Positions 7,695-58,640 of a stretch of DNA of 64,000 nucleotides are shown one piece after another. Below the pieces are notes generated by a model. The model ran no database searches. It was not told where the DNA came from and was given only the letters and a program-made list of their open reading frames with translations. This DNA comes from Thunnus maccoyii (taxonomy: Eukaryota; Chordata; Actinopteri; Scombriformes; Scombridae): the NCBI RefSeq assembly GCF_910596095.1, contig NC_056537.1:808574-872573 (forward strand). The letters run 5' to 3'. Both the position numbers and the translations under genes were made by a program. Position 1 is the first letter of the stretch. Each line of letters opens with the position of its first letter.

Positions 7695-8300
7695 GAAACT
7701 TCTCACATGCTTTCATATCAATAAATGTTCAAACAGATTTGTGTATCAGAACTTTGTTTTTTCTTCTTTCCTCTCCCATTAATCATCTCACCACCCCTCA
7801 GATTTATCTGCTGACCCTTTGGAGGGGCCCGACCCCTAGGTTGGGAACCACTGGACTAAACTAGCTAACTGTATATAAAGTAGTGTAAACTAGCTCCACC
7901 TCCAGCAGCTACAACATTAACATGCTGCTCTAACACTGATGCTTCACTATTAATAATCTAATGATGTCATATATAATAATATATCAGTCAGAGGGACCAA
8001 ACCACTACTTTTACTGCAATACTTTAACTACATCAAGCTCATAATACTTATGTACTTTTACTGCAATACTTTAACTACATCAAGCTCATAATACTTATGT
8101 ACTTTTACTGCAATACTTTAACTACATCAAGCTCATAATACTGATGTACTTTTACTGCAATACTTTAACTACATCAAGCTCATAATACTTATGTACTTTT
8201 ACTGTAGGAGGATTTTTCATGCAGGACTTTTACTTTTAATTGGGTATTTTCACATTGTTGTATTGGTACTTTTATTGCAGTAGGGGATCTTAGTGTTTCT
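7695..8300 (+). repeat. Interspersed repeat copy A with internal 47-bp tandem array
   Basis: The segment beginning at GAAACTTCTCACATGCTTTCAT and passing through CCCATTAATCATCTCACCACCCC is repeated near-identically at 32,960-33,840. It contains a tandem array at 8006-8207 of a 47-bp unit (TACTTTTACTGCAATACTTT and onward), about 4.3 copies here against about 8.3 copies in the second locus. The element ends in TTTTCATGCAGGACTTTTACTT and similar phrases. It is a transposon family whose internal satellite has expanded independently; no protein is encoded. Confidence 0.75.
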
Positions 8301-8559
8301 TCCACTAATTTTCTCAAATGAAAAATAAAACTAAAATATAAACCGAGACTTTTCGGGACTTTTCGGGATGACTCCATATTCACGACTTGCTGTTGGCAAA
8401 TGTGTTTCCGTTGGATCGCGACGGAATGACCCGCCCTTCTCTGCCTCTGATTGGCTACTACTCGTTGAGGAGTGATATGATTGGGTTAGAGTAAGAATAT
8501 CCAAATAGGTCAGAGCCAATCAGAGGTAGAGGAGGGGCGGGTCTTCGTCCTAAGAAACG

Positions 8560-22410: not shown

Positions 22411-25400
22411 ATGTCGGCCAACCTGAGCGCGGCGGAGGCGGAGGAGGCGGCGGCGGCGGCGGCAGGACACAACGTGCCGGCCCTGGTGTTCGGGGTGCTG
22501 CTGATCGTGGTGATCATCTGCGGGAACCTGCTGGTGTGTCTGAGCGTGTTCACCGAGAAGGCTCTGAAGACCACAACCAACTACTTCATCGTCAGTCTGG
22601 CGGTGGCGGATCTGATGCTCGCGGTGCTCGTGCTGCCGCTCTTCGTCTACTCAGAGGTGAGACCGACCGGACCGGACCCGACCGTCTGAGAGAAACTAGT
22701 TTACCTGTTAAAGGTTCGGTTCAGGTGTCAAATCTGAACAAAAAACCCTTAAAACAGCTTTAATCAAACCTGAAAAACACTTAATATTAATCTGCAGATC
22801 ACTGAAAATACAATTTAGAAACACTTAAACTAATGAAGTCACATTAAAGAAGTTGATGGGATGGCATATAGACAGCGCGCCACTTTTAAGGACACTGTCG
22901 TGTCATTTAACGCTGTTGGTTTGTTTAGTCATAAAAAAACATTTGGTTGTGTTAAAATGCGGTAAAAATGTCCCGTTAACGACACTAAAATGCCCCACGT
23001 GACGGTCTCAATAAACTATCAAACCAGCCTCCTAATGAGGAAAATTCACCTTATAAAATAAAAGAAAGTCACATTATACAGACGTCATTTCAAACATAAG
23101 GGAGTGAAATGACACGCGACCAATGAAATGAATATTCATACATGTTATTACATCATTATGTTGATTCAGATTATGAGATTGTATAAAAACACAAAGATGT
23201 TGCTGCTGCAGAAAGAAACACTGGACTGAACCCACAGTTAAGATCTTTATTGACCCACAAGAGGAAATTCTTTACACTTCTATATATTCTATAAGTTCTA
23301 TATATTCTATAATACAATAAAATCATTAAAAGTGCTCAGAAAAAAGCAACAATACGAACAGGAAAGCGATAAAGTACCAAGAATGAACACTTGAAAATAA
23401 AGTGTGATGATTAAACTTAAACAAACAAGTAAACCCAGTAATAAACAGATGAAATATATAAATGAAATAAATAAAATGTTAACAGATGACAGATTGTCAG
23501 TCTGTAGCGGTATATACACATATAATACATTGTTCATAATGTAGTTATAAGCAGTTATAAGGACATTTGAAGTGTTTATTACTGTGCAGAAGACATATAT
23601 TACATATTTTATATCATTTTATTACAGCTGTCATACTATCTTTCATTATCTGTGTATGAACCAGCATCCAGGACTAATTAAATTTGCTTACAATCGCAAC
23701 AATTAACACTTATAAAAGAGCTTATGTCTGCTTACAGCTGTATTATAGTGTGTTACAGTATGAAACATTGATTAAATGTTTATAAATGATAAATAGTGAG
23801 GAGTTACTGAGATCAGGACAGGAAGTTAGTTTTTGTGAGATTTTTATGGACTTCAAAGCAGCTGTTATGTATATTTCTATAATAATGTCTGATGTGTCAG
23901 TGTGTAACGTGTTGGTGATGAACCTACAGAGAATCATCAGAGACTCTGCAGCTCCTCTCGGCTTTACGGAGCTTTATAGTGAGTTTCAGCTCATTGTTTA
24001 TCTGTCCGGCTGCAACTTTACTGTTCTGGTTCACTCTCAGCGTCTCATAGCGTCGTTTTCAGAGAAAAAGCTGTAAAAAGCTGCTGAACACTACCTGCTA
24101 ACAGTTAGCTGTAGAGTAGCTGGTGAACATAGTGGAGCATTTAGCAGCTAAAGAGCCAGATATTTCCCTCAGGAGTTGGTAGAGAGTAAAAACAGAGCTA
24201 AAAGAGAAACACGACTCCACATGAATGATCATGTTGCTCCGTAACTGCTGGATGTGGAAATAAACAACTGTTTGCTAACATGTTAGCCACAAGTACTTTA
24301 TAAGATGATAATATGACAGAAGTAGTTTTTACAGACTATTCTGCTGAAAACAAGTTCAGGCAGCTTTAACCAGATTGAAACTATGAAGGACCAAGACTAG
24401 AACCCTGAGGAACCCCACATGTGATTATTGACATTATCAATGGGAGGATCATGTTGCTCCGTAACTGCTGGATGTGGAAATAAACAACTGTTTGCTGACA
24501 AGTTCAATATATCAGATGATGAGTCAGAGTTTTATTCACTGCTTGTTTCTGCAGGTTGTGACACTTTAATATAAAGTCAGTTATGAATTCACGTCTATAA
24601 TAAAGTAACATCGTTTGTAAAGTAAACGCTGGTCGTTATTTTCAGCTAAGTGACCTCTTTTAGGGGTCAGGACCCACAGGTTGGGAAACATTGGTTTAAA
24701 GGATCAGTTCCATGTTTTTACAGACGCAGCTTCAGTCTTGAGTCAGGAACTTAACAACAAAACCATTTGAGGCTTTCTACCATATCACATGGTCTTCACT
24801 GAGCACGCTCAGTTGTACTGGAGCTGTAAACAGTCAAACCACTGTCACAGCTGACAGAACAGTCAAACTGAGGGATCTCTGGTGGCATTTATTTATTTAT
24901 TTATTTATGTAATTCTATTAAATACAGTGTATTTATTCTATCGTCTAGTATAGTCTAGAAGGAGGATGTCCAACTTTAGATAGAATTAGATTCAACCTGT
25001 CAACGGGGCAAACCAAACCCAGCAGCCTTCATTTATTCATTCGGGGTTCAGGTCTTTGAAACATTCAGTGTAACGAGGTCAGAACCAAGTTCGGCAGCTT
25101 TCGGTGTCACTCGTAGTGATCCAGACCTGCCGGACCTGGACGGGATGCTTGGAGAACCACTTTGGCGACTTTGATGTGCCGTTCATATAATGAATTATTA
25201 TACATAATTTGCATCATCTGCACGCATGCAGCAGTCAGACAGACAGATAAGTGATAGAAGCTCTGATATGAAAACTCTTGACACCAATAACAGATTGTTT
25301 ACATAAACAGGCTACACGCTAACCTCCCATGACTGCTGCATTATATAGTTTCTGTTGTTTACACCTCCACAATAATCAAACTTTAAGCCAATTAGATTTT

Positions 25401-31400: not shown

Positions 31401-34400
31401 AAAACTCTCTGATGTGTTGCAGGTTCATCGCCGTGTTGATTCCTCTCAACTACAACAGGAAGCACGTGGACACGCGGCAGATGGTCCTGCTGTCGGCCAC
31501 CTGGATCCTCGCCCTGGCCGTGGCCTCGCCCGTCATATTCGGCATCAACAACGTGCCGGGCCGCGACCCCACCGAGTGCAAACTGGAGAACGACGACTAC
31601 GTGCTGTACTCGTCCGTGTGCTCCTTCTTCATCCCGTGTCCCATCATGCTGCTGCTGTACTGCGGCATGTTCCGCGGCCTGCGGCGTTGGGAGGAGGCGA
31701 GGAAAGCCAAGCTGAGGAAAAGCATCCAGGCCTGCCGCAAACTGCAGGAGGCCGCCGCCTCGCTGCCGCCGCTGGCCTCGCTGCCGCCGCCCCTGCCGCC
31801 CATCATTGAGCGAGAAATGACGGACACTCAGGACGAGCCGTCCACCTTCCCGTCCTCAGACCGGCCCTTCCCCTCGCCAGGGTGCAAAGACGGCCTCGTG
31901 AAGACGGTGAGCTTCACAGAGATCAAGTTCAACCCCGACCCTCACAGGAGGAAGACAGCCAAGATCAACAGCCGCGAGAGGAAGGCCATGAAGGTGCTTC
32001 CTGTCGTTGTGGGTGAGTTTACTTCCTGTCGGTGACATCACCGCCACCTAAAACTGGATTACCAACAAACTGGGCAACTGGTCCCGGGATTAAAGGGTCC
32101 AAACTCCAGCAACACTTGTAATATTAAGAACAAAGTGTGATTTACTGGCGTCTACATGGAGAAATTAAACATTATTAAAGAGTCCAAACTCCAGAAAGAC
32201 GCAAGCAAAACCCCCCAGAAGCTTTACTGTGTGTCAACAACCAAACATTTGACTCATATCAGAGTCAGATTCCTTGTATGTATGAACATATTTGGCCAAT
32301 AAAGCTGATTCTGATTCTGTCCTCATGATCAATGTAAACGCCGATCGGTTTCTTCTAACAACATGAACGTGTCTTCAGAGAGGAAACTTTCATTCATCAG
32401 ACAACAGTCAGCTGTAACGTGAAATAATAAGAATATAAATCTAAAAACTCAAATTTAATACCAACAGTAAAAAGGCTGAAGCTCCTGAACATCAGTGACT
32501 AAATAAATAAATAAGAAAATAAAGTAAATGTCATTTCAGTCTAAATAACTGTCTGTGGTTTTATGTGTAAAGCTCAGTGACAGTATGAGGCTGTAACCTG
32601 AACATCAGTAAACACCTGCAACACACAGTCTGACACAGTCTGACACAGTCTGACAGTCCTACAGCGTTTTATCAGGAAAAAGGTTCAGGCGGATTTCCAA
32701 AAAGCACATTTGGTGACTCCTTATTTTTGTAAACACGTCCTGATTATGACACAATCAAAAAGAAAGTGAGAGAAGGACGACTTGTAGACGCTGCCAACAG
32801 CCAGCCAATGGTTGTTCCAGATATTAATGAGGCGTCAAACTGAACATCAAACCAACAACTGATCTGATGGAAACCTGTCAGTGGAGATCAGCTGATATCA
32901 GTTCAGCAAAAAGCTGAGCTGTCTATGAGTTGTTAACAGCTCCACCAAATAGTGATTTTTCCCTCTAAACTTCTCACATGCTTTCATTTCAATAAATGTT
33001 CAAATGATCCAATATTTCAGCAAAAATCAAAGATTAGAGAAAAAGTCCAAAAACTGAAAACAGATTTGTGTATCAGAACTTTGTTATTTCTTCTTTCCTC
33101 TCCCATTAATCATCTCACAACCCCTCAGATTTATCAGCTGACCCTTTGGAGGGCCCCGACCCCTAGGTTGGGAACCACTGGACTAAACTAGCTAACTGTA
33201 TATAAAGTAGTGTAAACTAGCTCCACCTCCAGCAGCTACAACAGTAACATGCTGCTCTAACACTGATGCTTCACTATTAATAATCTAATGATGTCATATA
33301 TAATAATATATCAGTCAGAGGGACCAAACCACTACTTTTACTGCAATACTTTAACTACATCAAGCTCATAATACTTATGTACTTTTACTGCAATACTTTA
33401 ACTACATCAAGCTCATAATACTTATGTACTTTTACTGCAATACTTTAACTACATCAAGCTCATAATACTTATGTACTTTTACTGCAATACTTTAACTACA
33501 TCAAGCTCATAATACTTATGTACTTTTACTGCAATACTTTAACTACATCAAGCTCATAATACTTATGTACTTTTACTGCAATACTTTAACTACATCAAGC
33601 TCATAATACTTATGTACTTTTACTGCAATACTTTAACTACATCAAGCTCATAATACTTATGTACTTTTACTGCAATACTTTAACTACATCAAGCTCATAA
33701 TACTTATGTACTTTTACTGTAGGAGGGTTTTTCATGCAGGACTTTTACTTGTAATGGAGTATTTTTACGTTGCTATATTAGTACTTTTACTGCAGTAAAG
33801 TATCTGAGTACTTCTTCCATCGCTGTCAGTCTCATAATGACATCATTATTCTTACTACAAGTCCGGTTGGAGTTTCGACTCTTTAAGATAATTTTCGTTC
33901 TGCTGGAAATCTGAAAGTTTCAATGAAGTTACGTTTAAGTTCAAAACATTTAGTAAGATGTTTTCCATCCACACACTTGCATAAATAGTGATATAATGGG
34001 TACCTGAACGCCTCACCTCCACCTCTGATGTCTGTTCAGAGGCTGCAGGTACCTGAACGCCTCACCTCCACCTCTGATGGAGGCACTAACCCATCAGTTA
34101 GAAAAGGTCGGCCTATTAATAACCGCCGGTGTTGGTCCTAATGCGTAGAAGTGCTTCCCTTTAGCACACAGCAGCTAATCCTGCAGCTCCTTAATCTTAA
34201 ATCCAATTATTACGTAAGACTGGGTCAGACATGAGTGTCAGTGTGCAGGTATCCCATGAAGCTCTGCCTCATTAGCTCCTTTGATTCAAGTGGAGGCCGG
34301 AGAGTAACGATAACAATAAGAGAGAAATAACTAACTATCATTCTGGTGATTTTTTTTTAAATATTCTTTTTGGGACAGTTGTAAACCTTTATTATAGGGA

Positions 34401-41571: not shown

Positions 41572-55246
<13,675 letters not shown>

Positions 55247-55465
55247 TCTTCCGCCGAACGACAAGAGCCGAATATGACCGAGCAGCCGCGGGACAGCCGG
55301 AGAGCAACCGACAGCAACCGACAGCACGGAGCCTGTTCACGGTGAACCGTTAAATCCACAATATTGTCTCCGAAACTGACGGAAACGTCAAAGGAGAATC
55401 AGGAGAAAAAGGCCGGAGAGACGAAGGCCGCCCGACGGTTTGTTTTTCATCAAGAAAGAGATGCG

Positions 55466-55712
55466 CCGGAAACTGCCGAGAGAACACGAGCCCGCCCGAA
55501 GCGACACACAGCGGCCGGAAACTACCGAAAGAACACGAGCCTGCCCGAAGCGACACACAGCGGCCGGAAACTACCGAAAGAACACGAGCCTGCCCGAAGC
55601 GACACACAGCGGCCGGAAACTACCGAAAGAACACGAGCCTGCCCGAAGCGACACACAGCGGCCGGAAACTACCGAGAGAACACGAGCCTGCCCGAAGCGA
55701 CACAGCGTCCGA
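55466..55712. promoter_or_regulatory. 49-bp CpG-rich tandem array upstream of DEAF1 carrying DEAF1-type binding sites
   Basis: Five units with a period of exactly 49 bp lie 220-466 bp upstream of the DEAF1 start codon. On the DEAF1 sense strand each unit contains TTCGGTAGTTTCCGG (plus-strand sites at 55515-55529, 55564-55578 and 55613-55627; weaker first and last versions at 55466-55480 and 55662-55676). From memory, the reported selected site for mammalian DEAF1/NUDR is TTCGGGNNTTTCCGG, so the three central copies differ at one defined base. Each unit also has a second TTCGGG half site (plus strand CCCGAAGCGAC). DEAF1 is known to bind and repress its own promoter; that this array does so is inference. 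Confidence 0.7.
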
Positions 55713-55739
55713 TACAGAAAACACAAATAAAATAATAAG

Positions 55740-56993
55740 AATCACAGGATCTTATTAAAGGACTATTTCACCTCAATTAAACTAAATGTTTCTATTCTTT
55801 CAGTCACTTTTCTTTTGAGTTCGTAAATTATATTTATGTGCTGTTTTTACCAGGTTTTTCCAACAGTGATTACATCTGGGTTTTTTTTATATAAATCATG
55901 TAAAAAAAAGAGTAACCAACCACAAGAAGTTCCACAATTAAAACCATTTATTGCATGTATAGTGATGTCAGCTGGAATGTCAACATAGAGAAAAGAAACT
56001 CTTAAAGCTCTTAAAAGGACGGGTTCACCATTTTTCTTCCATTGTAAGGTCATTATGAAGGATCTTCTAACGGTCTGTATGAACAGGAGGAATGATTACA
56101 GCAAGAAAAACAGCTTTGATGTTCATTTGGGCTCCTGACTGTTGGTTTAAGACATGCTTGAAAAACTGTGAACTGGTCCTTTAAATCTCCTCAGCAGTGA
56201 TCTGTGGTGTAACGCAGACAGACTGAAGGTGTCCCTGTAAACCATGAACAGACAACAAAACACACACTGAACTAAAACTGCTCATCAAACTAAAGTGAAA
56301 CACGACTGAACAAACTTCTCCATAAAGATGATTAACCAGCGATGTTTGAAGCTCGTTTAAAAAGACTTCCTGCTGGTCTGAAGGTCTCCAGATGATTCGA
56401 GGAGTCTTTGGAGGTTCTGGACGTGTTTTTAAATGACCTTCTGTCTGCTGATACATGAGGCGTAAACTGATCCTCTGCTGCTGGTTTTTCAGGTTATTTA
56501 AATACAGACGATCACACATCATTTTTTATCTATGAACTCTCTGCTCACACACTCTGTGAAAGCTTTGAAACAGCAACTGAACACTTATTTATTCAACCTT
56601 GCTGTTAACTGACGCTCCTCCTTTGTTTTTATTCTTCTTCTCTTGTTCTTTGCATAGCTGTTCTTGCTATTTGCTGCTTCTTTTGTTGTTTTAATTCACC
56701 TGCTGCTGTTTATTATTATTATTATTAATTTCTAGGAGACAGTTGTTATTTCCAGAGAAATAAAACATCCTCAAAAACTGTTTTAAATTACTGTGTAGTC
56801 TGGAAGTGTGATCTAATCTAATGAAAGTCTTGGGGCAAGTTTGACTTGATTGACGGCTTCATCAGCCTATCACACGCGGCCGTGGTGTTTGCCACTCCCA
56901 CCCGGCTGCAGCAGGAGCAGGACGAAGGTGACGCTGAGCCGGATCCTCCATGGCCGGGTCTGTGTCTATCAGTAGCCTGCAGTGTGTTTGGTC

Positions 56994-57248: not shown

Positions 57249-58640
57249 TCAGCGCTGGATCCTGGAGACCAGGTAGTAGAGCAGGAAGAAGACCAGGACC
57301 AGGCCCACGGAGACGTAGCAGAGGATGCGGCGGTTGTCTCGACTGGATCTGACCATAGTGGAGAAACGCTTCACGCTGCCGGTCAGCAGGCCCGTCGCAC
57401 TCAGGAAGTTTGAGTCCTGAGAAGAGAAGAAGAAGAAGAAGAAAACGACACCATATTTTAGCTAAAACTCGTTTGCATTCACATTTTTTCACCGATGAGA
57501 AACAACTTCATGAACGTCGGGTAAATTAAAAAAGGTTAACGATCCGTTTCACAGACAGGAAGTACTCACCATGCCGTCCAGATACTCGTTCTGATCGTCA
57601 GCCTCTCTGTCTATGTCGTACGCCAGCTGTCAGACACACACACAGAGCAGATCATCCGCTTACACTTTAGTTTTCTGATCGGTTCCCTGCAGGGATCAAT
57701 ACTGAGTCAACAGCAACAATTCTGGATCAAACTGTGACACATTTGCATTTTTTTACACATACAATATACACATTTACACACTATCAACCATTAAACTACA
57801 GAAACACAATGAAACAGTGATGTAATAAAGATCCTCGTGTGCTGCCTGTTGTTGTGTTTTTATCTCGGTGTGTCTGATTGACACTTTAGTTGTTTGTGTG
57901 TAAAATGAGCTGCTGTGTTGAAACAATCTGTGATCGTTATTTAATCTCAGGGTCATACAGCAGACATGACTCACAGATTTCAGTCTGGAGACTTTGGCGG
58001 CCAAGTTCTCAGCCAGACGTTTGTTTTCAGTGTCCAGCACATCGTCCACGGAGCCGTGACCTGGAAACACAAACACACACTGGATTAGACATTAAACTGT
58101 GAGGTTACACTTCTGACATCACATAGCTGCTTCTTATGATAGAGAAACACAGTTAATGCTGAATACTACCAGCTGATAATCAATTATTATTGGACAACAT
58201 TCACTGATGCAGTGAAGGCAACAGCAGCTGCTGGCTGTGAACACACACAAACTCAACCATAGAGCAGGTTCATCAGCTGAATATGAGGTTAAAGCTTCTT
58301 AAGAAAAGAAACACAGATGAGTATTGATTTTAAGGACAAAGCTACATGTTCTGTTCCTGTGTTTTCAACATCTGTAATCACCAGTTAACTCTGTCACCAG
58401 TTAACTCTGTCACCTGTTAACTCTGTCACCTGTTAACTCTGTCGCCTGTTAACTCTGTCACCTGTTAACTCTGTCACCAGTTAACTCTGTCACCAGATAA
58501 CTTGGTCACCAGTTAACCTGAAACACCGGTGTGGAGGATGGAGAGGTGACATGATCTTTCTGTTGTATTACAGCAGCAGTAAAGGAAGCAGAACAAGAAT
58601 CTGATGATGACACTAATAATAAACCATCAGCCACACTGCT

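Follow-up and report, generated by a model that had tools for sequence, protein, structure and literature searches.

Mammalian DEAF1 represses its own promoter (PMC4274154), and this repression is used as an assay of the protein (PMC5458005). The consensus reported for it in 2014 is a repeated TTCGGG whose CpGs lie 6-11 nucleotides (nt) apart; TT is preferred before CG in both half-sites, methylation of one half-site suffices to abolish binding, and a mouse Htr1a site whose sole CpG lies in CTCGTG is bound weakly (PMC4274154). Human SAND mutations that lose both DEAF1 binding and own-promoter repression are reported to cause intellectual disability (PMC4274154), and a plasmid with the DEAF1 promoter carries multiple TTCG sequences (PMC3307728). 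Here, we analyze a 64,000-nt stretch of the Thunnus maccoyii genome (contig NC_056537.1, positions 808,574 to 872,573; hereafter, the window), in which a minisatellite of 49-bp units lies just upstream of the DEAF1 gene and carries pairs of half-sites close to this consensus.

The closest described system is the N52-69 element of mammalian DEAF1, which is repressed by DEAF1 and, like the fish promoter, contains paired CpG half-sites (PMC4274154, PMC3307728, PMC5458005). N52-69 is 11-spaced and has two TTCG, whereas the fish pairs are 8-spaced, imperfect, and multiplied by the 49-bp array at the edge of a CpG island. The general idea of a self-operator multiplied in a promoter is already known from apple. 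In MYB10 R6, a minisatellite-like repeat in the MYB10 promoter multiplies the site to which MYB10 itself binds, as the fish array does for a candidate site, but R6 is a plant repeat with a 23-bp unit and positive autoregulation, and its binding and effect were established by experiment (PMC5671642). In MdNAC18.1, a 61-bp promoter duplication creates a self-binding site with negative autoregulation; this is one experimentally shown duplication rather than an array (PMC11933844). Among the literature matches listed, none is by its title a study of a fish DEAF1 promoter, and none of those listed for DEAF1 in combination with fish, its own promoter, minisatellites, or tandem repeats mentions DEAF1.

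A minisatellite of near-consensus DEAF1 sites upstream of DEAF1

The first-pass annotation had placed five 49-bp units just upstream of DEAF1, and both the array and the identity of the gene were borne out (Table 1). The host gene is the teleost DEAF1, on the minus strand with its ATG at 55246: one exon encodes a SAND domain with KDWK, MYND exons are present, and the other exons were placed by eye. Pfam recognized both domains in the manually joined exon pieces (SAND, 3e-27; zf-MYND, 6.1e-11). The array extends from 219 bp to about 460 bp upstream of the ATG; its four ATG-proximal units are 49 bp long and the distal unit is 2 bp shorter. It lies at the upstream margin of a CpG-island-like stretch and has a CpG observed/expected ratio of 1.30. 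On the sense strand, each unit has four CpGs at 10-bp steps (8 nt between CpGs).

The same annotation had compared the units with a 15-letter optimum, TTCGGGNNTTTCCGG. This string was not found in our literature search, where the 2014 consensus is instead the paired TTCGGG. With up to two mismatches, TTCGGGNNTTTCCGG occurs at 7 places in the window against a shuffle mean of 0.42; five of these are the array units and two lie outside the DEAF1 region (8352 and 17784). As first described, three units (the middle ones) match at 12/13 positions and the others are close versions: both outer units reach 11/13, their weakness being CTCGG in place of TTCGG, read CTCGG(T/C)AGTTTCCGG. A TTCGGG half-site is found in 5/5 units, and the string CTCGTG in every one of them. 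Scored against the published consensus, each middle unit holds three 8-spaced pairs that overlap and differ from TTCGKN5TTCGK at one position apiece, and 11/44 CpG pairs of the array score 9/10 (one mismatch).

Because the array copies are not independent, we restricted the counting to one unit and compared it with 20000 dinucleotide shuffles. The 12/13 match was reached by 12/20000 shuffles. A set of three TTCGK pairs, all 8-spaced and scoring at least 9/10 (no more than one mismatch), was reached by 2/20000; we tested the 8-spaced form because the 2014 paper itself scans with it (PMC4274154). The same three-pair score over spacings 6, 8, and 9 was reached by 31/20000, and four CpG steps of exactly 10 bp by 15/20000. 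An origin of the unit from a decamer was considered and set aside: its lag-10 self-match is 22/49 (321/20000 letter shuffles), but the best lag between 5 and 24 was reached by 273/5000 shuffles.

An array of this composition could also serve other promoter factors or, if unmethylated, merely lengthen the CpG island. A GGAA core occurs once per unit, within the antisense CCGGAAAC, which we take to be ETS-like, and the CpG ratio of the array agrees with an extended island. The core differs, however, from the ETS optimum, CCGGAAGT, and we regard such a role as improbable. A role at the RNA level was rejected as well. As RNA, the sense strand of the array folds less well than shuffled versions of it (z +2.49; 199/200 fold at least as well) and the sense unit contains no ATG (by eye), so that RNA structure or upstream open reading frames in the array are unlikely.

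The enrichment spans the promoter

Self-site enrichment is not limited to the repeat. Between the ATG and the array lies a unique leader of 218 bp (55247-55480 has a single genome match, which is itself), and 5/28 of its CpG pairs are near-consensus, compared with 9/1094 in the rest of the window and 7/666 in 100 kb drawn from ten other places. The leader's score of five pairs was reached by 12/5000 leader shuffles; among 41 CpG-dense 218-bp control windows taken from elsewhere in the window and from these 100 kb, none reached three pairs and two reached one. The first-exon region contributes a further 4/40 near-consensus pairs (4/5000 shuffles). Over unit, leader, and first exon together, TTCGK ranked top of 32 half-site patterns (NNCGK/NNCGM) with an 18-fold enrichment, and the second-most enriched half-site was CTCGK, at 5.9-fold. 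Hence, the enrichment is real and promoter-wide, and the whole promoter looks like a DEAF1 target of which the array is the multiplied edge.

Near-consensus dual-CpG sites across the promoter are what would be expected if mammalian negative autoregulation holds in this fish. The minisatellite itself probably arose when a single 49-bp piece, at the upstream margin of the CpG-island promoter, was amplified in tandem. The array would form clustered operators of low to medium affinity, which DEAF1 may occupy when they are unmethylated, with stronger repression as the predicted outcome. The most likely reading of the locus, which we put at somewhat less than an even chance, is that a conserved negative feedback gains weak operators through the array, with DEAF1 predicted to bind them. 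The first-pass annotation had taken DEAF1 to be named for autoregulation. The name refers to Deformed; own-promoter repression itself is published for the mammalian protein (PMC4274154, PMC5458005).

The distal unit recurs between Helitron sequences

The distal unit and its AT-rich flank recur at 8 or more other loci (genome counts are lower bounds), within Helitron composites; this recurrence between Helitron sequences is new here. The composite family comprises nine loci (L019-L025, L033, and L058), each combining a truncated Helitron, a promoter-like segment, and a second Helitron. A segment of ~150 bp is enclosed by two modules, the first breaking off shortly before its 3' end and the second starting TCTAACTAAAATGG or similar. 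In the ninth composite (L058, on C1), both junctions are kept and the unit is lost, leaving the segment ends only. Two of the 8 copies are multi-unit (L002/L033 with 3.5 units; L003/L025, by eye, with roughly two, of which one is shorter). The first of these, at L002 1501-1673, is a 49-bp array of its own in a composite Helitron copy, its 3.5 diverged units showing 82% matches.

Most of 12 simple copies run from CAATACCGGAGG or similar into a palindromic end (by eye), followed by CTAG and a T. Among 27 scanned copies, CTAG was found in 20, always before T, and A followed by TCT[AG]AC in 12; 7 of the 20 CTAG copies are near-identical on C12 and thus not independent, and the remaining copies were missed by the script patterns or are changed. 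The dispersed relatives therefore carry Helitron termini (5' TC after A and 3' CTAG before T), and we read these ends as Helitron marks. The 3' end of one copy, when folded, gave a z of -1.75 (9/200 shuffles as good), with a 7-pair hairpin in the centroid that is absent from the minimum-energy structure. The bat element HelibatN3, which captured the NUBPL promoter, offers a likeness in its TC...CTAG ends and probably also in its hairpin near the 3' end and in read-through, where a hairpin is missing, into the host DNA beyond (PMC4778049). The fish composites differ in being nine decayed copies in which a second Helitron supplies the 3' end.

Capture, insertion, and the order of changes

Two directions of exchange can be proposed. 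A composite Helitron may have inserted by DEAF1, lost its Helitron parts, and had its unit expanded, in which case the sites would be transposon-borne rather than native. The unit and distal flank do stand in Helitron sequence at 8 loci, with segment ends in a ninth composite, and the L002 copy has an array of its own. Identity between DEAF1 and each of the 8 copies is 80-82% and among the copies themselves 77-88%, values that leave the tree of DEAF1 and copies unrooted. In contrast, no Helitron part was found beside DEAF1 when four Helitron stretches were searched against the window by blast (E 0.01), the only matches being the segment itself and TG-repeat sequence near 59.7 kb. Homology also ends at or near both junctions. 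On the distal side, it stops at AAACTAA, and the Helitron 5' end comes next in the copies, preceded by 12-17 extra bases in L019, L023, and L025 and by an altered stretch in L024. On the other side, to the left of the array, pieces of 55401-55430 align on one diagonal in 6/7 copies (Table 1), two of these six over only 9 and 15 bp; controls were as good in 0/1144 for two copies and in 8 to 122/1144 for the other five. The ~34 bp of DEAF1 between the left piece and the array are absent from the copies. A segment that lies at DEAF1 without Helitron sequence, with homology ending at or near the junctions, favors capture by read-through over an insertion followed by two clean losses. Against capture, it requires that two Helitrons once flanked the promoter, whether on an ancestral haplotype or in a duplicate since lost, and neither of them is now observed. 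We therefore judge the transposon origin to be rather unlikely and favor the view that a Helitron captured a piece of the DEAF1 promoter.

The dispersed copies have decayed at CpGs. The 7 CpGs of the DEAF1 distal unit and flank correspond to 56 cells in the 8 copies, of which 15 are CG, 35 are TG/CA, and 6 are other. Loss of CpG in the dispersed copies and not at DEAF1 is as expected if only the home copy stayed unmethylated in the germ line. At the base that separates CTCGG from TTCGG, the CTC state is present in 6/8 copies, read by eye, and in both outer DEAF1 units (of the remaining copies, L022 shows the alternative state and L019 a third base), which suggests a derived origin for TTCGG in the three middle units. 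The CpG at this site is intact in only 2/8 copies, and a near-consensus pair is kept in 1/8. We suggest that TTCGG at DEAF1 is probably a derived change that lifted two overlapping pairs from 8/10 to 9/10 and was then amplified.

Joined together, these steps would make up a longer history: a C-to-T change first improved two overlapping pairs in a vertebrate repressor's own operator, whose multiplication into a minisatellite then made feedback dependent on copy number, while a Helitron captured and scattered the same promoter piece and the scattered copies were lost to CpG decay, the home copy alone staying unmethylated. That this history holds as a whole we think unlikely.

A neutral array as the main rival

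Slippage or unequal exchange may simply have copied an ordinary CpG-rich promoter segment, in which case the likeness to DEAF1 sites would stem from composition and ancestry, and copy number would be without effect. The intact middle TTCGG is absent from the two outer units and from the 8 aligned Helitron-borne copies, which suits such a neutral array. Set against it, the match of the unit exceeds composition-preserving shuffles, and the leader exceeds all 41 CpG-dense control windows. We consider a neutral minisatellite possible, if on the doubtful side.

Several observations count against weak operators added to a feedback loop and, in part, for a neutral array. First, minisatellites are common here: with a period of at least 15, at least 2.8 copies, and at least 80 bp, the window holds 13 distinct arrays, this one included (a manual count of the Tandem Repeats Finder list), compared with 1 in 100 kb sampled elsewhere, and three more lie between DEAF1 exons (46122, 49503, and 52394). 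In so minisatellite-rich a window, a promoter array needs no selection and is expected now and then. Second, the consensus itself is lacking, as neither array nor leader contains a perfect TTCGK pair (10/10, spacing 6-11). The rest of the window contains three at these spacings, and the two perfect 8-spaced TTCGKN5TTCGK at 8352-8366 and 25090-25104 are better than any pair of the array. Third, the statistics soften under wider scoring: over spacings 6-11, the three-pair score was reached by 280/20000 unit shuffles, which is the conservative figure; the leader shows no excess of single TTCGK half-sites over its shuffles (948/5000); CpG pairs share half-sites, so that Fisher values of the pair tests are overstated; and the first-exon pairs lie on the opposite strand. 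Of the proposal that the array multiplies a DEAF1 operator, what stands is a likeness above shuffles; the array has no perfect pair, its signal is common to the unique leader, and its TTCGG is probably derived.

Other features of the locus and window

A further one-mismatch pair, at 25100, follows the perfect pair at 25090-25104. The window sits 0.8 Mb from the contig start. Its arrays include one of 31 bp x 62 (1.9 kb) in DEAF1 intron 1, at 52394-54306, and a single 47-bp minisatellite unit that is found at two places 25 kb apart (8006-8204 and 33333-33719), perhaps by way of a dispersed element. Intron 1 of DEAF1 apparently starts with GC and not GT (GCAG/GCAAGG on the minus strand, 55042-55048, by eye). 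Upstream of DEAF1 and on the same strand, an exon at 57252-57461 has no Pfam family at E 0.01 and presumably resembles the C-terminus of BET1L. Four genome matches were inspected for a second DEAF1 gene as a natural control and none was one, the two outside DEAF1 showing 47 and 50% identity. A search for relatives gave no exact match in the viral (0) or prokaryote (0) collections, and a bacterial promoter scan was uninformative for a vertebrate.

Table 1. Coordinates of the array, its near-consensus sites, and the surrounding promoter features (positions in the window)
Feature	Position	Strand	Remarks
49-bp minisatellite, 4.9 copies, 97% matches	55465..55709 (Tandem Repeats Finder: 55465-55704)	-	Tandem Repeats Finder
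TTCGGTAGTTTCCGG, 12/13 to TTCGGGNNTTTCCGG, one mismatch to TTCGKN5TTCGK	55515..55529; also 55564-55578, 55613-55627	-	
CTCGGCAGTTTCCGG, ATG-proximal unit, 11/13	55466..55480	-	
CTCGGTAGTTTCCGG, distal unit, 11/13	55662..55676	-	
TTCGGGCAGGCTCGT, 8-spaced pair, one mismatch	55535..55549; also 55584, 55633, 55682; as TTCGGGCGGGCTCGT at 55486	-	
CTCGTGTTCTTTCGG, 8-spaced pair, one mismatch	55525..55539; also 55574, 55623	-	
Unique leader between ATG and array, 218 bp	55247..55464	-	5/28 CpG pairs one mismatch from paired TTCGK
First coding exon region of DEAF1	55010..55246	-	ATG at 55246; includes first intron bases
CpG-island-like stretch, 930 bp, 91 CpGs, observed/expected 1.25	54851..55780	.	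Spans array, leader, and first exon
Distal unit and AT-rich flank, recurring within Helitron composites at 8 other loci	55661..55785	+	Homology ends at Helitron 5' junction
Left piece of Helitron-borne segment	55401..55430	+	Pieces on one diagonal in 6/7 composites tested

Implications

The composite Helitron family represents a possible case of host-promoter capture in fish. Its dispersed copies would preserve the promoter piece as fossils that reveal in which order the changes occurred. If the array works, its repeat count would set how strongly a repressor feeds back on itself, and the fish promoter would be the vertebrate equivalent of the MYB10 allele in apple.
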